Shown: piece by piece, positions 8,628-43,648 of the stretch
How positions within the stretch are numbered: the first letter of the stretch is position 1
Layout: every line of letters starts with the position of its first letter
Assembly: GCF_947492535.1 (NCBI RefSeq)
Contig: NZ_CANLNH010000006.1
Location: 1 to 64,000 of the forward strand
Direction of reading: 5' to 3'
Length of the DNA: 64,000 bases
DNA from: an uncultured Dokdonia sp.
GTDB taxonomy: Bacteria > Bacteroidota > Bacteroidia > Flavobacteriales > Flavobacteriaceae
The notes under the pieces: generated by a model
What the model saw: the letters and a program-made list of their open reading frames with translations, nothing else
The model's database searches: none
Told to the model about the DNA's origin: nothing
Made by a program: the position numbers and the translations under genes

Positions 8628-10898
8628 ATGGCATTTGATATTGATATGATCAAGGAAGTCTACGCAAGAATGGCCGAGCGTGTAGATACTGCTCGTGATC
8701 TTGTAGGAAGACCATTAACACTTTCTGAAAAGATTTTATACTCTCATTTATGGGAAGGCAAACCAACAAAAGCCTTTACGAGAGGAAAAAATTATGTAGA
8801 TTTTGCTCCTGATAGAATCGCTTGTCAAGATGCAACAGCTCAAATGGCTTTATTACAGTTTATGCAAGCTGGAAAAGATAAAGTAGCAGTACCTACAACG
8901 GTACATTGTGATCACTTAATCCAAGCAAAAGAAGGTGCGGCAACAGATTTAAAACATGCAAATGATGTAAGTAGTGAAGTATTTAACTTCCTAGAATCTG
9001 TATCTAATAAATATGGAATTGGTTTCTGGAAACCAGGCGCGGGTATTATTCATCAAGTAGTTTTAGAAAATTATGCATTCCCAGGCGGAATGATGATTGG
9101 AACAGATTCTCATACAGTAAATGCTGGAGGATTAGGTATGATTGCTATTGGAGTAGGAGGAGCAGATGCTGTAGATGTAATGGCTGGAATGGCTTGGGAG
9201 CTTAAATTTCCAAAACTCATAGGTGTAAAGCTCACCGGAAAACTAAGCGGATGGACAGCACCAAAAGATGTAATTCTTAAAGTAGCCGAAATTCTTACCG
9301 TAAAAGGAGGAACTGGAGCTGTGGTTGAATATTTTGGACCTGGTGCTACAGCGATGTCATGTACTGGTAAAGGAACTATTTGTAATATGGGAGCTGAAAT
9401 AGGAGCAACAACATCTACTTTTGGATATGATGAATCTATGGAACGCTACCTAAGAGCTACAGAAAGAGCAGATGTAGCAGATGCTGCAAACCAAGTAAAA
9501 GAACACTTAACTGCAGATGCAGAAGTATATGCAAACCCTGAGCAATATTTTGATCAAGTAATAGAAATTAACCTTTCAGAATTAGGCCCATTATTAAATG
9601 GACCTTTTACTCCAGATTTATCTACGGCAGTAGGGGGTGAAATGACTGAAAAAGCAACAGCTAATGAATGGCCACTACAAGTAGAGTGGGGATTAATAGG
9701 ATCTTGTACGAACTCATCGTATGAAGATTTATCAAGAGCCTCTTCTATCGCGCAACAAGCTTTAGACAAAGGAATAAAAATGAAAGCAGAATTAGGAATT
9801 AACCCAGGTTCTGAGCAAGTACGATATACAGCAGAAAGAGATGGTATCTTAGAAGTATTTGAAAACCTAGATGCTAGAATCTTTACAAATGCTTGTGGTC
9901 CATGTATAGGACAATGGGCTCGTTATAATGATCCTAAAAATGCACCAAAAAATAGTATTGTACATTCTTTTAATAGAAACTTTGCTAAGCGTGCCGATGG
10001 AAATCCTAATACACATGCCTTTGTAGCGTCACCAGAATTAACAGCAGCGATTGCGATTGCAGGACGTTTAGATTTTAATCCGCTTACGGACTCATTAATT
10101 AATGAAGAAGGACAAGAAGTGATGTTTGATGAGCCTACAGGATGGGAATTACCTCCAAAAGGTTTTGACGTAAAAGATAATGGATACCTAGCTCCAGAAG
10201 AAGATGGAAGTAAGATTAATGTTGTTGTAAATGAAACTTCAGAACGTTTACAACTATTAACGCCATTTGTACCTTTAGGAGACTCTATTACGGGGGCTAA
10301 ATTATTAATAAAAGCATTTGGTAAGTGTACTACCGATCATATCTCTATGGCTGGACCTTGGTTACGTTTTAGAGGTCACTTAGATAATATTGCAAACAAT
10401 ACCTTAATTGGTGCTGTAAATGCATATAACAAAAAGACAAATTTTGTTAAAAATCAATTGACAGGAGAATATGGTGGTGTACCTGATACACAGAGAGCAT
10501 ACAAAGCAGAAGGAATTAAAACTATAGTGGTGGGAGATCATAACTATGGAGAAGGATCTTCTCGTGAGCATGCTGCAATGCAACCACGTCATTTAGGAGT
10601 TGCCGCTGTAATTGTAAAAAGTTTTGCACGTATACATGAGACCAACCTTAAAAAACAAGGAATGCTTGGACTTACGTTTGCAAACGAAGCAGATTATGAT
10701 TTAATTAAAGAAGATGATACTTTCAACTTTGTAGATTTAAATGAATTTGCTCCTGAAAAGCAATTAACAATTGAAGTTGTTCATGCAGATGGAAGTAAAG
10801 ATACTATCAAAGTAAATCATACGTATAACCAATCACAAATTGATTGGTACAATGAAGGAAGTGCCTTAAACCTTATCAAAAAGGAGAATGCAGCATAA
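8628..10898 (+). CDS. acn: Aconitate hydratase (mitochondrial-type)
   Basis: 756 residues, the usual length of the mitochondrial-type aconitases of Bacteroidota (AcnA and AcnB are longer). It converts citrate to isocitrate through cis-aconitate in the TCA cycle, in the cytoplasm. The [4Fe-4S] ligands are Cys360 (GSCTNSS) and Cys423/Cys426 (ACGPCIGQ). Other landmarks are GTDSHT (about 158-163) and, in the swivel domain, [10 protein letters not shown]. It is transcribed alone, from a promoter near 8541-8571 to a strong hairpin terminator. A Crp/Fnr regulator lies next downstream. Confidence 0.97.
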
Positions 10899-37787: not shown

Positions 37788-38675
37788 TTATTTTACAATA
37801 AATTTTTGTGTATCAAGGATGACCCCGTTTTGTTCTATTTGATAGAAATAAATACCAGAAGAAGGAAAGTCATTATGATTGATAATTGTAGTAGGAGTGA
37901 TGATTTTTTTCCGATTGATGTATTGCCCTAAGACATTGTAAAAGGAAATGATTGTATTATTCTGAAAATTATTGATGGTTAGTGTAGATTGATCTCTAAT
38001 AGGATTTGGAGTAAGTGATGCTGTTATTTCTGGAACTTCAGAAATATTTAATAAGCTACAATTTCCTTCTTCGCTAAAAGGGAAAAACTCTATTCCATCA
38101 CCAAAACACCCTAAATTGTAACTAGCATCTATTACACTTCTAAATGGATTTATCAAATTTGTGGTAGACCCTATACCTTCAATCCATTGTTCAAAATCAG
38201 AAATAAAAGAATCAGGAGTAGGAACATCAAATGTGATGACTTTACGCATTTCTCCTGCTATAAACTCATTAGTAACTGCTGTTACATCTGCAAGTCCATT
38301 TTGATTTGTGTCTTCTACAGGAATTATAGAGGCGCTATCTCCTACTTCAAGAGTGAAGTCATAGAGTATAGACTCTTCGTCCTGATTTGTACTTAAGATA
38401 TAAATGGTAGATGCTTCTTCTCTTAAATAACTAGAGAACTGCCATTGATTTGTAAAAGTGTTATAAAACTCTATGGTAGTATATGTGATCTCATTTATGA
38501 CTTCTTGGCCATTGGTTCTATAACCTGAAATTTCAAAATCATTACAATCAGGAAGATCTCCACAAAATTGAGTAATCTCAACAGTCCATCGATTCCCTTG
38601 ATCTATCATAGAGAAGTTTTGGGCATTGAATTCAAAAATCGTGAGTAGTAGTGTTACTAGTAATAGTTTTTTCAT
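37788..38675 (-). CDS. T9SS type A sorting-domain protein, copy 2 of a tandem pair
   Basis: 295 residues. Signal peptide ends FNAQ. The middle holds the segment ILYDFTLEVGDSA and ADVTAVTNEFIAGEMRKV, shared with the gene before it. The C-terminal sorting domain (SLTPNPIRDQSTLTINNF, FYNVLGQYIN, SGIYFYQIEQNG, KFIVK) marks it as exported by the type IX system. Gap of 8 nt to the related upstream gene: a recent tandem duplication and one transcript. Confidence 0.92.
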   Translation of the reverse strand: MKKLLLVTLLLTIFEFNAQNFSMIDQGNRWTVEITQFCGDLPDCNDFEISGYRTNGQEVINEITYTTIEFYNTFTNQWQFSSYLREEASTIYILSTNQDEESILYDFTLEVGDSASIIPVEDTNQNGLADVTAVTNEFIAGEMRKVITFDVPTPDSFISDFEQWIEGIGSTTNLINPFRSVIDASYNLGCFGDGIEFFPFSEEGNCSLLNISEVPEITASLTPNPIRDQSTLTINNFQNNTIISFYNVLGQYINRKKIITPTTIINHNDFPSSGIYFYQIEQNGVILDTQKFIVK

Positions 38676-38683
38676 AGCTGTAA

Positions 38684-39568
38684 TTATTTTACAATAAACT
38701 TTTGTGTATCAACGACAATTCCGTCTTGTGCTATTTGATAGAAATAAATACCAGAAGAAGGGAAATCAGAACGATTAACGATTGTAGTATTATTTGTGAG
38801 TTCTTTTTGACGTAAACGTTGTCCTAAAGTATTATAGAAAATGATGGTCGTATTGTTTTGAAAGGTATTGATGGTTAACGTAGATTGTTCTGTAATAGGG
38901 TTTGGAGTTAATTGGGTTGTTATTTCTAAAACCTCAGGAGTACTCAATAATTCATTACATTCTTCTTCAGAAGAAGAAAAAGAAAAGATTTCTTCTCCAT
39001 TATTAAAGCAATCTACTATAAATACAAGATCACAAAGTAAAAAGTCAGGATTCGTAGGTTCATTTGCAGAACCTATGCCTTCAATCCATTGGAGATTGCT
39101 AGAAAAATTTGATCCATATCCAATATCAAAAGTGATCACTTTTCTATCATAACCCGCTATAAACTCTGTAGAGACTTCTATAACATCTGCTAGACCATTA
39201 TTATTTTCGTCATCGACACAAGATGCTTCAGGACCTATTTCTACAGTATCACCTACTTCTAGTGTAAAATCATATAATATACTCTCTTCTTCATTTTCGA
39301 CATATTGATAAACAATACCTTCTTCTTCTCTTATATATAGTTCCTCAAGACCACTTAAAATAGTATACGTGATATTATTTATGAAAATTTCGCCCGTAAT
39401 CTCAGCAGCATACAGACCCGTAGGATTACAACCTGATTCAGGATTAGTATCACAGTGACCATCATACCATCTGACTCCCCATTTATTTCCTTGATCTGTT
39501 ATAGAAAATTCCTGAGCGTGAATCGCTGTCATTACAAAGAGTAGGATGATAAGTAATTTTATTTTCAT
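38684..39568 (-). CDS. T9SS type A sorting-domain protein, copy 1 of a tandem pair
   Basis: 294 residues. Signal peptide ends IHAQ. It shares DQGNKWGV near the start, YIREEEGIVYQY, ILYDFTLEVGDTV and FIAGYDRKVITFD with the downstream copy, and a nearly identical C-terminal sorting domain (LTPNPITEQSTLTI ... FYNTLGQRLR ... SGIYFYQIAQDG). The passenger domain is not recognised. The ILYDF/REExGIVYQY pattern also appears in the secreted protein at 62712-63269. Confidence 0.92.
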   Translation of the reverse strand: MKIKLLIILLFVMTAIHAQEFSITDQGNKWGVRWYDGHCDTNPESGCNPTGLYAAEITGEIFINNITYTILSGLEELYIREEEGIVYQYVENEEESILYDFTLEVGDTVEIGPEASCVDDENNNGLADVIEVSTEFIAGYDRKVITFDIGYGSNFSSNLQWIEGIGSANEPTNPDFLLCDLVFIVDCFNNGEEIFSFSSSEEECNELLSTPEVLEITTQLTPNPITEQSTLTINTFQNNTTIIFYNTLGQRLRQKELTNNTTIVNRSDFPSSGIYFYQIAQDGIVVDTQKFIVK

Positions 39569-39841
39569 AGCATCTTAATTAGATGATTTTAAAGATACTA
39601 AAAAGAATGTAAGCATTCATATTATACACTAATGTTACTTAGTACACTCCTGCCTGCCTGTCAGCAGACAGGTTCACGAAAGCGTACTAATGATGAGAAC
39701 TATTATAATCATATATTATAAAGTGTTCGTTTTTAATTAGTAAGTACTGCCTTAAATTATCTGAAATAGGGTGTTGTTTGTTTTTTCCATAAGGATATAA
39801 TACTACCTTTTGGCATATTAACCATAAAAATATTTGATATT
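39569..39841. other. Intergenic region upstream of the GG-leader peptide gene
   Basis: It contains a hairpin element CCTGTC-AGCA-GACAGG (39657-39672) followed by a half palindrome CACGAAAGCGTAC (39675-39687), and a possible weak promoter (TTG 39778-39780, TACCTTTTG at 39804-39812) for the peptide gene. The rest is AT-rich with nothing recognised. Confidence 0.4.
39649..39687. repeat. CCTGCCTG hairpin abutting a half copy of the genome palindrome
   Basis: CCTGCCTG, then the stem CCTGTC-AGCA-GACAGG, then CACGAAAGCGTAC. The last part equals the right half of the TTTCGCGAAA palindrome with one change, so the left half seems to have been replaced by the hairpin. Confidence 0.6.
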
Positions 39842-40012
39842 ATGTTAAAAAACATTTCAACATTAGGAACCTCATTAAGTAAGAAAGAGCAAGAACAAAT
39901 TCAAGGAGGATTTAACAATGGATTCTGCTGGAGAAATTCAGACTGTTATTGTGAGTTTTTAGGTCCTGGTGATACGTATTGTGGAAGTAATAATTATTGT
40001 CAGTTTTGGTAG
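39842..40012 (+). CDS. Double-glycine-leader, Cys-rich peptide (bacteriocin-like precursor)
   Basis: 56 residues. The leader MLKNISTLGTSLSKKEQEQ ends QIQGG at 23, the double-glycine site used by C39 peptidase/ABC exporters, and resembles the Bacteroidota natural-product leader type (LxxLGxxLSxxEQxxIxGG). The mature part would be 33 residues with five Cys (C29, C35, C37, C47, C53) and three Trp/aromatic clusters (FCWRNSDCYCEF, TYCGSNNYCQFW). There is a terminator right after it, so it is a single-gene transcript. No exporter or modifying enzyme is nearby. It may be a bacteriocin, a signal, or a RiPP precursor; the leader is seen, the function is inferred. Confidence 0.8.
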   Translation: MLKNISTLGTSLSKKEQEQIQGGFNNGFCWRNSDCYCEFLGPGDTYCGSNNYCQFW

Positions 40013-40043
40013 ACAATTCATTCTATGAATAAGAAAAATAAGA

Positions 40044-40080
40044 AAACAGGAGTAACTTACTAGTTATTCTTGTTTTTTTT
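40044..40080 (+). terminator. Rho-independent terminator after the GG-leader peptide
   Basis: AACAGGAGTAACT-TACT-AGTTATTCTTGTT, a 13-bp stem with two wobble pairs, followed by a long T-run. It could also end the minus-strand gene that stops at 40087. Confidence 0.75.
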
Positions 40081-40086
40081 TGCGTA

Positions 40087-40836
40087 TTACATATCTCTAT
40101 ATCGCCTTGTAGAATCATAGCCTGCAGAATCATATGGCGCATCTGTATCCATAGTATTCTTTTTATACATAGGTTGATATGTTTTCATGGTGGATGCATC
40201 CCATAATGGCACCCCTAAAAATTCTGATATAATAATAGCTTCCTTTTGAATAGCTTCATATTTAGCATGATCGACTACATTATAACGGTCACCATCTTCA
40301 AACACAAAGTTTAATTCATAGCTGGTATAGCTACTATTTTTTGATCGAACATATTCAGGGATAATTTGTAATGCGCCAATCGTATCTAATTTGATATGAT
40401 TTTTTGTGTTTGTACGTTGAAGACTATTTACGGGTTTTTTAAAACTCTTGTAAAAATACCCTAGTCTTTTATCTAGGACTATAGGGCGAAAGTGCATGTA
40501 GAGTAAATAAAACCCCACTGCTGGAAAAATTAAAATAAATAAGAAGAAATATTTAGTCTCTCCTTCTGTTTCAAAAAAACCTCCACTAAAAAAGAATACA
40601 ACAAAGATAGAGGGCATTAGTGTAAATACTAAGGCAAATAATAATCCTGCAGTAGATCCTTTATAATGTAATTCTGAAGATGATACTTCTTTTAATGTGC
40701 GTGTTTTAAAATTTGCCCCGCCACTTGCTTGCGGATGCCAAGCTGTTTTATCTGCTAATGGGTCGTCAAACGCAGATACATCAAGTGGTTTAGGCTTCAT
40801 GCTTTTTGTAATACGCTCAAAAAAACTTCGTAACAT
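40087..40836 (-). CDS. Membrane protein of unknown function, linked to uvrA
   Basis: 249 residues. Two TM helices (about 64-83 and 94-113), then a cytoplasmic or periplasmic beta-rich region with ELNFVFEDGDRYNVVDH and a Tyr/Asp-rich tail (APYDSAGYDSTRRYRDM). No family was recognised. It follows uvrA by 4 nt and is surely co-transcribed with it; whether it acts in repair is not known. Confidence 0.8.
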   Translation of the reverse strand: MLRSFFERITKSMKPKPLDVSAFDDPLADKTAWHPQASGGANFKTRTLKEVSSSELHYKGSTAGLLFALVFTLMPSIFVVFFFSGGFFETEGETKYFFLFILIFPAVGFYLLYMHFRPIVLDKRLGYFYKSFKKPVNSLQRTNTKNHIKLDTIGALQIIPEYVRSKNSSYTSYELNFVFEDGDRYNVVDHAKYEAIQKEAIIISEFLGVPLWDASTMKTYQPMYKKNTMDTDAPYDSAGYDSTRRYRDM

Positions 40837-40840
40837 CTGA

Positions 40841-43648
40841 TTATACTTTTTCTTTTAAATACTGACCTGTATATGATTTTTTAGATTTGACAACTTCTTC
40901 CGGAGTACCTTGTGCAATAATATTCCCGCCATGTTTTCCTCCTGTAAGCCCAAGATCAATAACATAATCGGCACATTTTACTAAATCCATATTATGCTCT
41001 ACCACAATAATACTATGCCCTTTTTCTATAAGTGCTTCAAAAGAGGCAACTAATTTATTAATATCGTGAAAGTGCAATCCTGTGGTTGGTTCATCAAATA
41101 TAAATAATGCTTTGTCTTTTGTATTTCCTTTTACAAGGAAAGACGCAAGCTTAATACGTTGGGCTTCGCCTCCAGATAGGGTAGAAGAGCTCTGCCCTAA
41201 AGTCACATACCCTAATCCTACATCTTGAAGCGGTTTTAACTTACGTGTGATTTTTGCTTCATTATGTTCAGAAAAGAAAGCTACGGCGTCATCTATAGTC
41301 ATGGTTAAGATATCATCAATATTTTTATCATTGAAGGTTACCTCTAATACTTCTTTTTTAAATCGTTTTCCTTTACAGTTATCACATTCTAAATGCACAT
41401 CTGCCATAAATTGCATTTCGATAGTGACTTCACCTTCTCCTTTACACGTCTCACAACGACCTCCGTCTACATTAAAAGAAAAATGCTTTGATTTGTAGTT
41501 ACGTATTTTGCTTAGCTTCTGATTTTCATATAATTTTCGGATGTCGTCATACGCTTTTATATAGGTAACAGGATTAGAACGAGACGATCTCCCTATAGGA
41601 TTTTGATCAACAAATTCTACTGTTTTTACAGTATCAAACTTTCCTTTGATTTCTGTAAACTGTCCTGCTTTTTGACCATAACCACCTATTTCTTTTAATA
41701 GCGCAGGATATAGAAGTTTACGAACTAAGGTACTTTTTCCACTACCCGAAACCCCAGTTACTGCTGTAAAGGCTCCTAATGGAAATCGGACATCAATATT
41801 TTTTAAGTTATTTTCTCTAGCGCCTATAATATCTACATAGAAATCTGTTTTTCTACGTGTTGATGGAAGGGCTATTTCTTTAGTGCCATTTAAGTACTGT
41901 GCTGTTAGTGAGTCACTATTAAGAATATCTTGATACGTACCCGTTGCCACTACATGTCCTCCAAAGGTTCCTGCTTCTGGTCCTATATCTATAATCTCAT
42001 CGGCGGCTTTCATGATATCTTCATCATGTTCTACTACAATGACTGTATTACCAAGATCACGTAATGATTTAAGTACTTCTATCAGCTTTTCAGTGTCTTT
42101 CGGATGTAAACCAATACTAGGTTCATCTAAGATATACATAGACCCTACAAGACTACTTCCCAAAGACGTGGCTAGATTAATACGTTGTGATTCACCACCA
42201 GATAACGTATTTGATTTTCGATTCAAGGTTAAATAATCTAATCCTACTTTAGATAAGAATTCAAGTCGGCTATTAATTTCTTTTAAGAGACGCTTAGCTA
42301 CTGTTGTATCATATTCATTTAGTGCTAGATTTTTAAAGTAATCTGCGACATCGTTAAGAGGCAGTGTCACAAGATCAATAATATTCTTATCGCCAACTTT
42401 CACATAGGTCGCTTCTGGTCGTAGGCGTTTTCCTTTACACGTATTACACTTTGTTTTTCCACGATAACGCGATAACATCACACGATTTTGAATCTTATAG
42501 GCTTTAGATTCTAAAAATTCAAAGAATTGGTTAATTCCTTCAAAATGCTCGTTACCATCCCATAATACTTGTTTCTGCTCTTCAGAAAGTTCGAAATAGG
42601 GTTTGTGTATAGGGAAGTCAAATTTGTATGCACTATTAACTAATTGATCTCTATAGTAACTCATACTTTCTCCTCTCCATGGGAATACGCAGTTTTCAAA
42701 TACAGAAAGTCCTGTATTGGGAATTACGAGATCTTCATCAATACCTATGACATCTCCATATCCTTCACAAGTAGGACACGCGCCGTATGGATTGTTAAAA
42801 CTAAATAAATGTACATTGGGTTCTAGGAATAGCATTCCATCCAACTCAAACTTATTTGAGAAATGCCTGAGCGTGTGATCACTGAGTGTTTCTATAAATA
42901 ATTCCCCTTTACCTTCAAAAAATGCAGTTTGAACAGCATCTGCGAGTCGATTACTAAAATCTTCATCGTCAGGATTTGTGACAATTCGATCTACAACCAG
43001 CTGAACATCTGATGCTTTTATTTTCTTTATGGCGTCTAACGCGTCTATACGTTTTACCTCGTCTTTTACTTTTACTCTTGCATATCCTTGTTGTTGGAGT
43101 GCTTTGAGTTTGTCCTGTAATTTGCGGCCTTCTTCTAAGTGCATAGGAGCGAGGAGGAGGAGTTTTTCCGCTTTCGCGAAAGCGTTTACATACCTAACCA
43201 CATCGGTAACCGTATCTTTTTTTACCTGATTGCCAGAAACTGGAGATATTGTTTTTCCAATACGTGCATATAATAACTTTAGGTAATCATAAATCTCTGT
43301 AGAAGTACCCACTGTCGATCTTGGGTTTGTAGAATTTACCTTTTGCTCTATCGCTATAGCAGGAGCAATCCCTTTAATATAATCTACTTTCGGTTTATCC
43401 AAACGCCCTAAAAACTGTCTTGCATAGGAAGAAAGACTTTCTACATAGCGACGTTGTCCTTCTGCATATAATGTATCAAACGCAAGACTGGATTTCCCAG
43501 AACCAGAAAGCCCCGTAATTACCACTAGTTTATTACGCGGAATTACAGCATTTATATTCTTAAGATTATGAAGTTTTGCACCCTTGATAATGATATTATC
43601 TTTCGGATTTACAAGAGAAATGTCTACTGGCATGGTGTTTTTTTGCAT
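40841..43648 (-). CDS. uvrA: Excinuclease ABC subunit A
   Basis: 935 residues, full length. DNA-damage recognition ATPase of nucleotide excision repair, working as a dimer with UvrB. Two ABC cassettes with Walker [10 protein letters not shown] and GVSGSGKST and signatures LSGGESQRI and LSGGEAQRI; zinc modules [16 protein letters not shown] and [25 protein letters not shown] in the first cassette is encoded by the palindrome. A -7-like box (CAAAGATA, 43656-43663, minus strand) is so close to ATG 43648 that translation may start at Met6 (43633). Confidence 0.97.
43169..43184. repeat. TTTCGCGAAA palindrome, copy 10 (inside uvrA)
   Basis: CGCTTTCGCGAAAGCG, minus-strand reading AFAKA. Confidence 0.95.

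Follow-up and report, generated by a model that had tools for sequence, protein, structure and literature searches.

A small gene at positions 39842..40012 (+) of the window, by which the whole 64,000-nucleotide stretch of Dokdonia DNA analysed is meant, encodes a double-glycine (GG) leader peptide that, with a probability of roughly two in three, is secreted and stabilised by disulfides, being guided by its leader, oxidised by a fusion protein, and cut and exported in trans by a C39-ABC transporter with an HlyD partner. Dispersed peptides of this kind seem to share a cutter-exporter and a membrane enzyme encoded elsewhere in the genome, and this enzyme probably makes their disulfides. Disulfide peptides with GG leaders are known, while the distinctive partner enzyme is apparently undescribed. 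The initial annotation, made from the sequence alone, had already proposed a GG-leader precursor, possibly one whose machinery lies elsewhere; the precursor was confirmed and candidate machinery located, but the annotation had missed both the dispersed family and the recurrent partner enzyme.

The gene starts with ATG and encodes 56 aa (stop included in the coordinates), and it is supported by orthologues and purifying selection, so that the small Cys-rich GG-leader gene initially described is real as a whole. No open reading frame of at least 40 aa in the ORF list overlaps it, as had been stated. The GG pair occupies residues 22-23, closing a leader of residues 1-23 (39842..39910, +) that is supported by the family leader profile A1, and the predicted mature peptide of 33 residues with five Cys (39911..40009, +) follows. 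Moreover, this ORF was the only one in the whole 64-kb window to pass a filter that required GG and four or more Cys. Four of the five Cys were invariant among seven aligned relatives, the exception being the third one, which varied. The invariant four most likely form two disulfides, and the fifth Cys would be free or pair between chains. This odd number of Cys counts against the preferred explanation, and so does the weak structure model of the peptide (pLDDT 69), from which no disulfide pattern could be read. The peptide matched no family in Pfam or NCBIfam.

The nearest named orthologue, at 91% identity, was found in Dokdonia pacifica DSM 25597, its locus (L009) being the orthologue among the six loci that the search returned. 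Two genes outside the system served as synteny anchors: one for a flanking protein of 249 aa with no Pfam match (40087..40836, −), and one for a probable UvrA-like protein (40841..43648, −). The 249-aa protein was present in 14 of the 18 genomes of the genus sample, and in four of these 14 its gene is flanked by the peptide gene on one side and by the uvrA-like gene on the other. The fetched flank beside the 249-aa gene held no such peptide in the other ten; in one of these (L186) the contig breaks off about 385 bases on. Pairwise comparison of the four orthologues gave dN values of 0.04-0.18 and dS values from 0.68 to saturation (dN/dS about 0.06-0.15); judged from these codon changes, the gene is under strong purifying selection. 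In particular, it differs from its counterpart in D. pacifica by 13 synonymous and 6 non-synonymous changes (Fisher p = 1e-7). Furthermore, dN was lower in the core than in the leader in all six orthologue pairs, and such a conserved core would suggest a fixed target or receptor for the peptide.

Upstream of the gene, a stretch of about 30 bases (39752..39781, +; centre AAATTATCTGAAATAGGG at 39754-39771), lying 60-90 bases before the ATG, is kept in four species while its flanks diverge, and it occurs as a single copy in the window's own genome when up to three mismatches are allowed; this conserved element is a possible activator site. A candidate Bacteroidota-type promoter (39777..39811, +; TTTG ... 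TACCTTTT) was located by eye in the four-species alignment, on the general consensus for such promoters. On the other side of the gene, a terminator-like hairpin with a U-run (40040..40079, +; folding energy −20.9 kcal/mol, z −4.8) lies where two genes converge and possibly terminates both, so that the terminator initially assigned to the peptide gene is borne out as a terminator-like structure that the two may share. As separate observations, the gap before the peptide gene contains the inverted repeat GCCTGTCAGCAGACAGG at 39656-39673 (a single site in the whole window and no occurrence in 100 shuffled sequences), and positions 37788-39568 (−) hold two adjoining paralogous proteins, 51% identical, of which the one at 38684-39568 (−) bears a Por_Secre_tail sorting domain.

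The gene belongs to a large family dispersed in its genome (4.86 Mb, 73 contigs). The window leader (39842-39910) matches profile A1 (23 positions, MLKNIS-LG--L-K-EQ--I-GG) with an E of 3e-10, being itself a row of the profile, and independent pairwise matches also link the window peptide to other peptides. Profile A1 was built from 40 leaders chosen by hand out of 87, themselves taken from 100 peptides picked by pattern; it left out lanthipeptide-type and most MKKLMNLK-type leaders, keeping one MKKLMNLK-type row and one MKKLINLK-type row. At least 39 matches were found with it in the own genome at E ≤0.01, with 43 of 62 candidates scored; hence the description of the gene as solitary is right for its own locus, but not genome-wide. 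A search of the same genome with the peptide itself gave 19 matches at E ≤10, self included, mostly over the leader. Among the 37 own-genome leader matches listed, only nine lay within 5 kb of genes for the fusion protein described below, and therefore precursors far from their machinery are the rule here. In a family whose members are so scattered and whose partner enzyme recurs, the missing neighbours of the window gene, which the initial annotation had correctly pointed out (no C39 and no VKOR match in the window, these families being scanned), are usual rather than odd.

Related GG-leader peptides, which the initial annotation had suggested searching for, proved to be widespread, profile A1 having matches in 28 genomes of a family sample of 199, each from a different genus. 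A total of 260 distinct GG-Cys peptides, selected by a filter demanding at least three Cys and 80 nt of upstream sequence, were collected from the fetched loci; 249 of them had at least four Cys (four in 83, five in 28, six in 101 and seven in 30), a range into which the five-Cys core of the window peptide fits. The cores had little in common except the Cys. Scanning 30 family members against Pfam and NCBIfam gave scattered weak matches only, including the bacteriocin-like leader model NF047798 (5 of 30 at E ≤1, the lowest E being 0.019) and TIGR04149, a model of radical-SAM-modified RiPPs (4 of 30 at E up to 1). Both models describe Bacteroidota GG leaders like that of the window peptide, yet the window peptide matched neither in the NCBIfam scan. 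The lanthipeptide leader models NF038153 and NF038158 did not match it either, their matches coming from other scanned members. Apart from this, arrays of similar seven-Cys peptides with an MKKLMNLKGA-type leader were seen near a fusion gene in several species (L024 at about 8640-9900, L071, L073, L086 and L090).

Candidate machinery, which had been suggested to lie elsewhere in the genome, was found outside the window. Five C39 matches were detected in the own genome, corresponding to two peptidase-ABC exporters, each accompanied by an HlyD-type gene, and to three fusion proteins; the suggested search for C39-ABC transporters and RiPP enzymes in the rest of the genome thus returned both. Both exporters retain the three residues expected of an active C39 peptidase (Cys, His and Asp), but one lies beside lanthipeptide dehydratase genes and the other beside grasp-with-spasm genes, which counts against their serving the window peptide. 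The fusion proteins are composed of a C39-like domain, a VKOR domain and a DsbA-like (thioredoxin) domain, with no transporter. VKOR and Thioredoxin_4 exceeded the cut-off in all three own-genome copies, while C39 exceeded it in two of the three proteins (18-31 bits, cut-off 22) and in all three in the DNA search. The CxxC motifs of the VKOR and thioredoxin domains were invariant in 14 of 14 aligned fusion proteins. When the C39-like part is aligned with genuine C39 domains, the match begins past their catalytic Cys (E 3e-8, probability 95%); lacking that region, this part should bind rather than cut. Against this, five of 36 C39-like N-termini have a Cys within the first 60 residues, and some copies, inspected by eye, have a His at the position of the C39 catalytic His. 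In the structure model of the fusion (mean pLDDT 75), the DsbA-like end matches BdbD and ScsC, and the model also matches the peptidase transporter PCAT1 with a low TM-score; furthermore, the HlyB-related model TIGR01846 matches the protein weakly (E 0.0014). Long proteins of another kind were also noted beside fusion genes, namely a CHAT-domain/TPR protein adjoining a fusion gene and GG peptides (L020:8704-11391, −) and proteins of similar look, by eye, in L080 and L084.

The leader and the fusion occur together at three taxonomic levels. Among the 18 genomes of the genus, seven matched the peptide at E ≤0.1 and seven had the fusion, six being common to both sets (p = 0.0025); in the seventh fusion genome (G210) a leader peptide directly adjoins the fusion, and in each of these seven fusion genomes at least one fusion copy has a Cys-rich GG peptide nearby. 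VKOR matches were restricted to 7 of the 18 genomes, all 15 matches listed falling in fusion frames, while the scan gave no match in the other 11. In the family sample, the leader appeared in 28 and the fusion in 29 of the 199 genomes, 23 being common (p = 5e-20, with one genome per genus and uncorrected for genome size or deeper kinship). After removal of the own genome and the two profile-source genomes, 20 of 196 still had both (leader 25, fusion 26; p = 1e-17). In the phylum sample (n = 395), the fusion was present in 41 genomes, the leader in 23 and both in 21, with a p-value (2e-21) that is too small because the sample has many genomes from few genera.

The fusion loci themselves point in the same direction. 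In a survey of 38 loci, covering 39 of the 42 fusion genes and setting aside the three of the own genome, a Cys-rich GG ORF was present in 36, a C39-ABC gene in 26 and an HlyD gene in 24, and the order fusion, peptide, C39-ABC, HlyD was seen, for example, in L200 and L215. The GG filter (at least four Cys) returned 81 ORFs in these loci, a few of them with other leader types, compared to none in the same loci reversed. However, several observations count against the preferred explanation. Within the fetched stretch, 12 of the 38 loci had no C39-ABC gene and 14 no HlyD gene; five genomes of the family sample were leader-positive without the fusion, and six were fusion-positive without the leader, five of the latter having another Cys-rich GG peptide in the fetched stretch. 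Moreover, one genome of 93% assembly completeness (G213) has a relative 50% identical to the window peptide and no fusion or VKOR match. At the window locus nothing ties the peptide to the fusion, the link being the shared leader.

From adjacency and co-occurrence, we infer that the fusion is a disulfide oxidase that docks the leader and oxidises the peptide. According to this mechanism, the 23-residue leader would direct the precursor to the common machinery encoded elsewhere, the C39-like domain without catalytic Cys would dock it, the VKOR and DsbA-like domains of the membrane fusion would form the disulfides, those of the window peptide included, and the C39 peptidase-ABC exporter with its HlyD partner would cleave after GG and export the 33-residue peptide. 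Precedents exist for parts of this arrangement. HlyB is a membrane protein handling an exported substrate, and its N-terminus is a C39-like domain devoid of the catalytic Cys; the fusion shares this fold and this lack, but has VKOR and DsbA-like partners instead of an ABC transporter. In the Gram-positive sublancin cluster, whose product is glycosylated, the Bdb oxidoreductases are encoded by the cluster itself; both peptide systems have their own disulfide enzymes, those of sublancin being separate proteins. In the literature covered, mostly abstracts and with subscription journals poorly represented, no VKOR-C39 fusion with GG peptides was recognised, and the terms sought were absent from a VKOR phylogeny (PMC4555120). 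The partner enzyme has apparently not been described before, such a literature negative being weak evidence of novelty. A broader proposal, which we hold tentatively and at somewhat less than even odds, is that of an undescribed system widespread in Bacteroidota, where the fusion reads a common leader and oxidises a large, diversified and dispersed set of disulfide peptides, many of them controlled by small mRNA pseudoknots of a new class; the window gene would be one of its conserved members, controlled by a promoter of its own.

Regarding the final role, antagonism of other bacteria is most likely, as for the bacteroidetocins, with signalling next likely. Bacteroidetocins, a proposed class IIf, also provide the experimental precedent for the mechanism: according to PMC6671954, they are cleaved after GG and show signs of disulfides, deletion of the thiol oxidoreductase attenuates their activity, and their four-gene cluster encodes the peptide, a C39-ABC transporter, a five-TM protein and mostly a thiol oxidoreductase; their target is BamA (PMC8546649). 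A bacteriocin close to them, killing related Bacteroidota, would be compatible with the preferred explanation, and its chances fall slightly short of an even bet. The likeness comprises the Bacteroidota host, the GG leader, the Cys-rich core and the logic of a C39-type ABC transporter plus thiol oxidase (PMC6671954), together with the weak NF047798 matches mentioned above. In contrast, the leader has 23 residues instead of the 15-16 reported there (PMC6671954), the gene is solitary instead of part of a local four-gene cluster, the oxidase is a C39-like/VKOR/DsbA fusion, and the core is kept across four species rather than changing fast. Besides, no immunity gene was recognised beside the peptide gene, a trait that bacteroidetocins share (PMC6671954).

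A secreted signalling peptide, made in trans and with its own regulator site, is an unlikely but serious alternative. A single gene, a conserved core and an upstream element that is both conserved and unique in the genome would suit it, while inspection of the neighbouring ORFs by eye gave no receptor or two-component partner, and dozens of very different cores have the same leader. Much less probable is a RiPP bearing lanthionine or radical-SAM chemistry on its Cys instead of disulfides, a RiPP precursor having been one of the options initially listed: class I lanthipeptide and grasp-with-spasm genes are present in the genome, but the leader of the peptide adjoining the lanthipeptide genes is of a different type (LTLNKEVISN), the window peptide matches no RiPP model and its leader type tracks the oxidase, leaving this option unsupported here. 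Finally, a frame open or decayed without function, as could be suspected of a short gene standing alone, is hardly credible given the synteny in four genomes, the dN/dS of about 0.06-0.15, the conserved upstream element and the hairpin; a chance ORF was likewise rejected on the codon-change pattern and on the GG-filter result with its reversed-sequence control.

The ATG of 112 of the 260 GG-Cys peptides, from many genera, is preceded by a roughly 35-nt element with two stems that would fold into an H-type pseudoknot (for instance L066:3143-3177, +; L085:4334-4368, +; and L004:1652-1686, −). The controls gave 6 of 1,300 shuffled upstream regions and, for ORFs at least 250 aa long, 8 of 614. Most elements (96 of 112) end 24-31 nt before the ATG, and 11 of the 30 GG peptides in the fetched regions of the own genome carry one. 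Covariation was counted in 55 distinct elements selected by the anchor TGA...TCA, the other 41 being outside this count, and amounted to 78 cells with changes on both sides vs. 30.6 in shuffles, none of 500 shuffles reaching as high; because of the selection by anchor, three of the twelve pairs are invariant by construction. The first stem was out of register in 14 of the 55 elements, which were scored as unpaired, and the signal was lost (0 to 7 cells) on sliding the alignment by 1 to 3 columns. Rfam gave no match to the pseudoknot in the 12 loci searched, 10 of them carrying it. The element is thus a candidate new cis-regulatory RNA, a putative riboswitch or regulator-binding site; it is absent before the window peptide gene, which counts against the preferred explanation, and before four relatives (L009, L041, L042 and L043). 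Other upstream elements were also observed: the known DUF805b RNA (RF02914, E 5e-8; L032:5572-5607, −) immediately precedes a GG-Cys peptide gene, the lanthipeptide-type precursors of L021 and L022 have sequence resembling it by eye ahead of them, and the palindrome TTACGGTNNNACCGTAA, a possible operator, lies upstream of other GG-Cys genes (L003:1704-1720, L007:1425-1441 and L061:1648-1664) in 5 of 225 loci, two being re-fetched copies.

Bacteroides are said to be without general disulfide-bond machinery (PMC6671954), and a leader-linked oxidase, if true, would account for disulfide peptides in such bacteria. The pairing of leader and fusion also gives a rule to find overlooked Cys-rich secreted peptides, including those with genes distant from any cluster (260 distinct in the fetched loci). 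Moreover, the pseudoknot found before many relatives is an immediately testable candidate for a riboswitch or regulator-binding element, and the compact fusion enzyme might be used to produce folded disulfide peptides to order.
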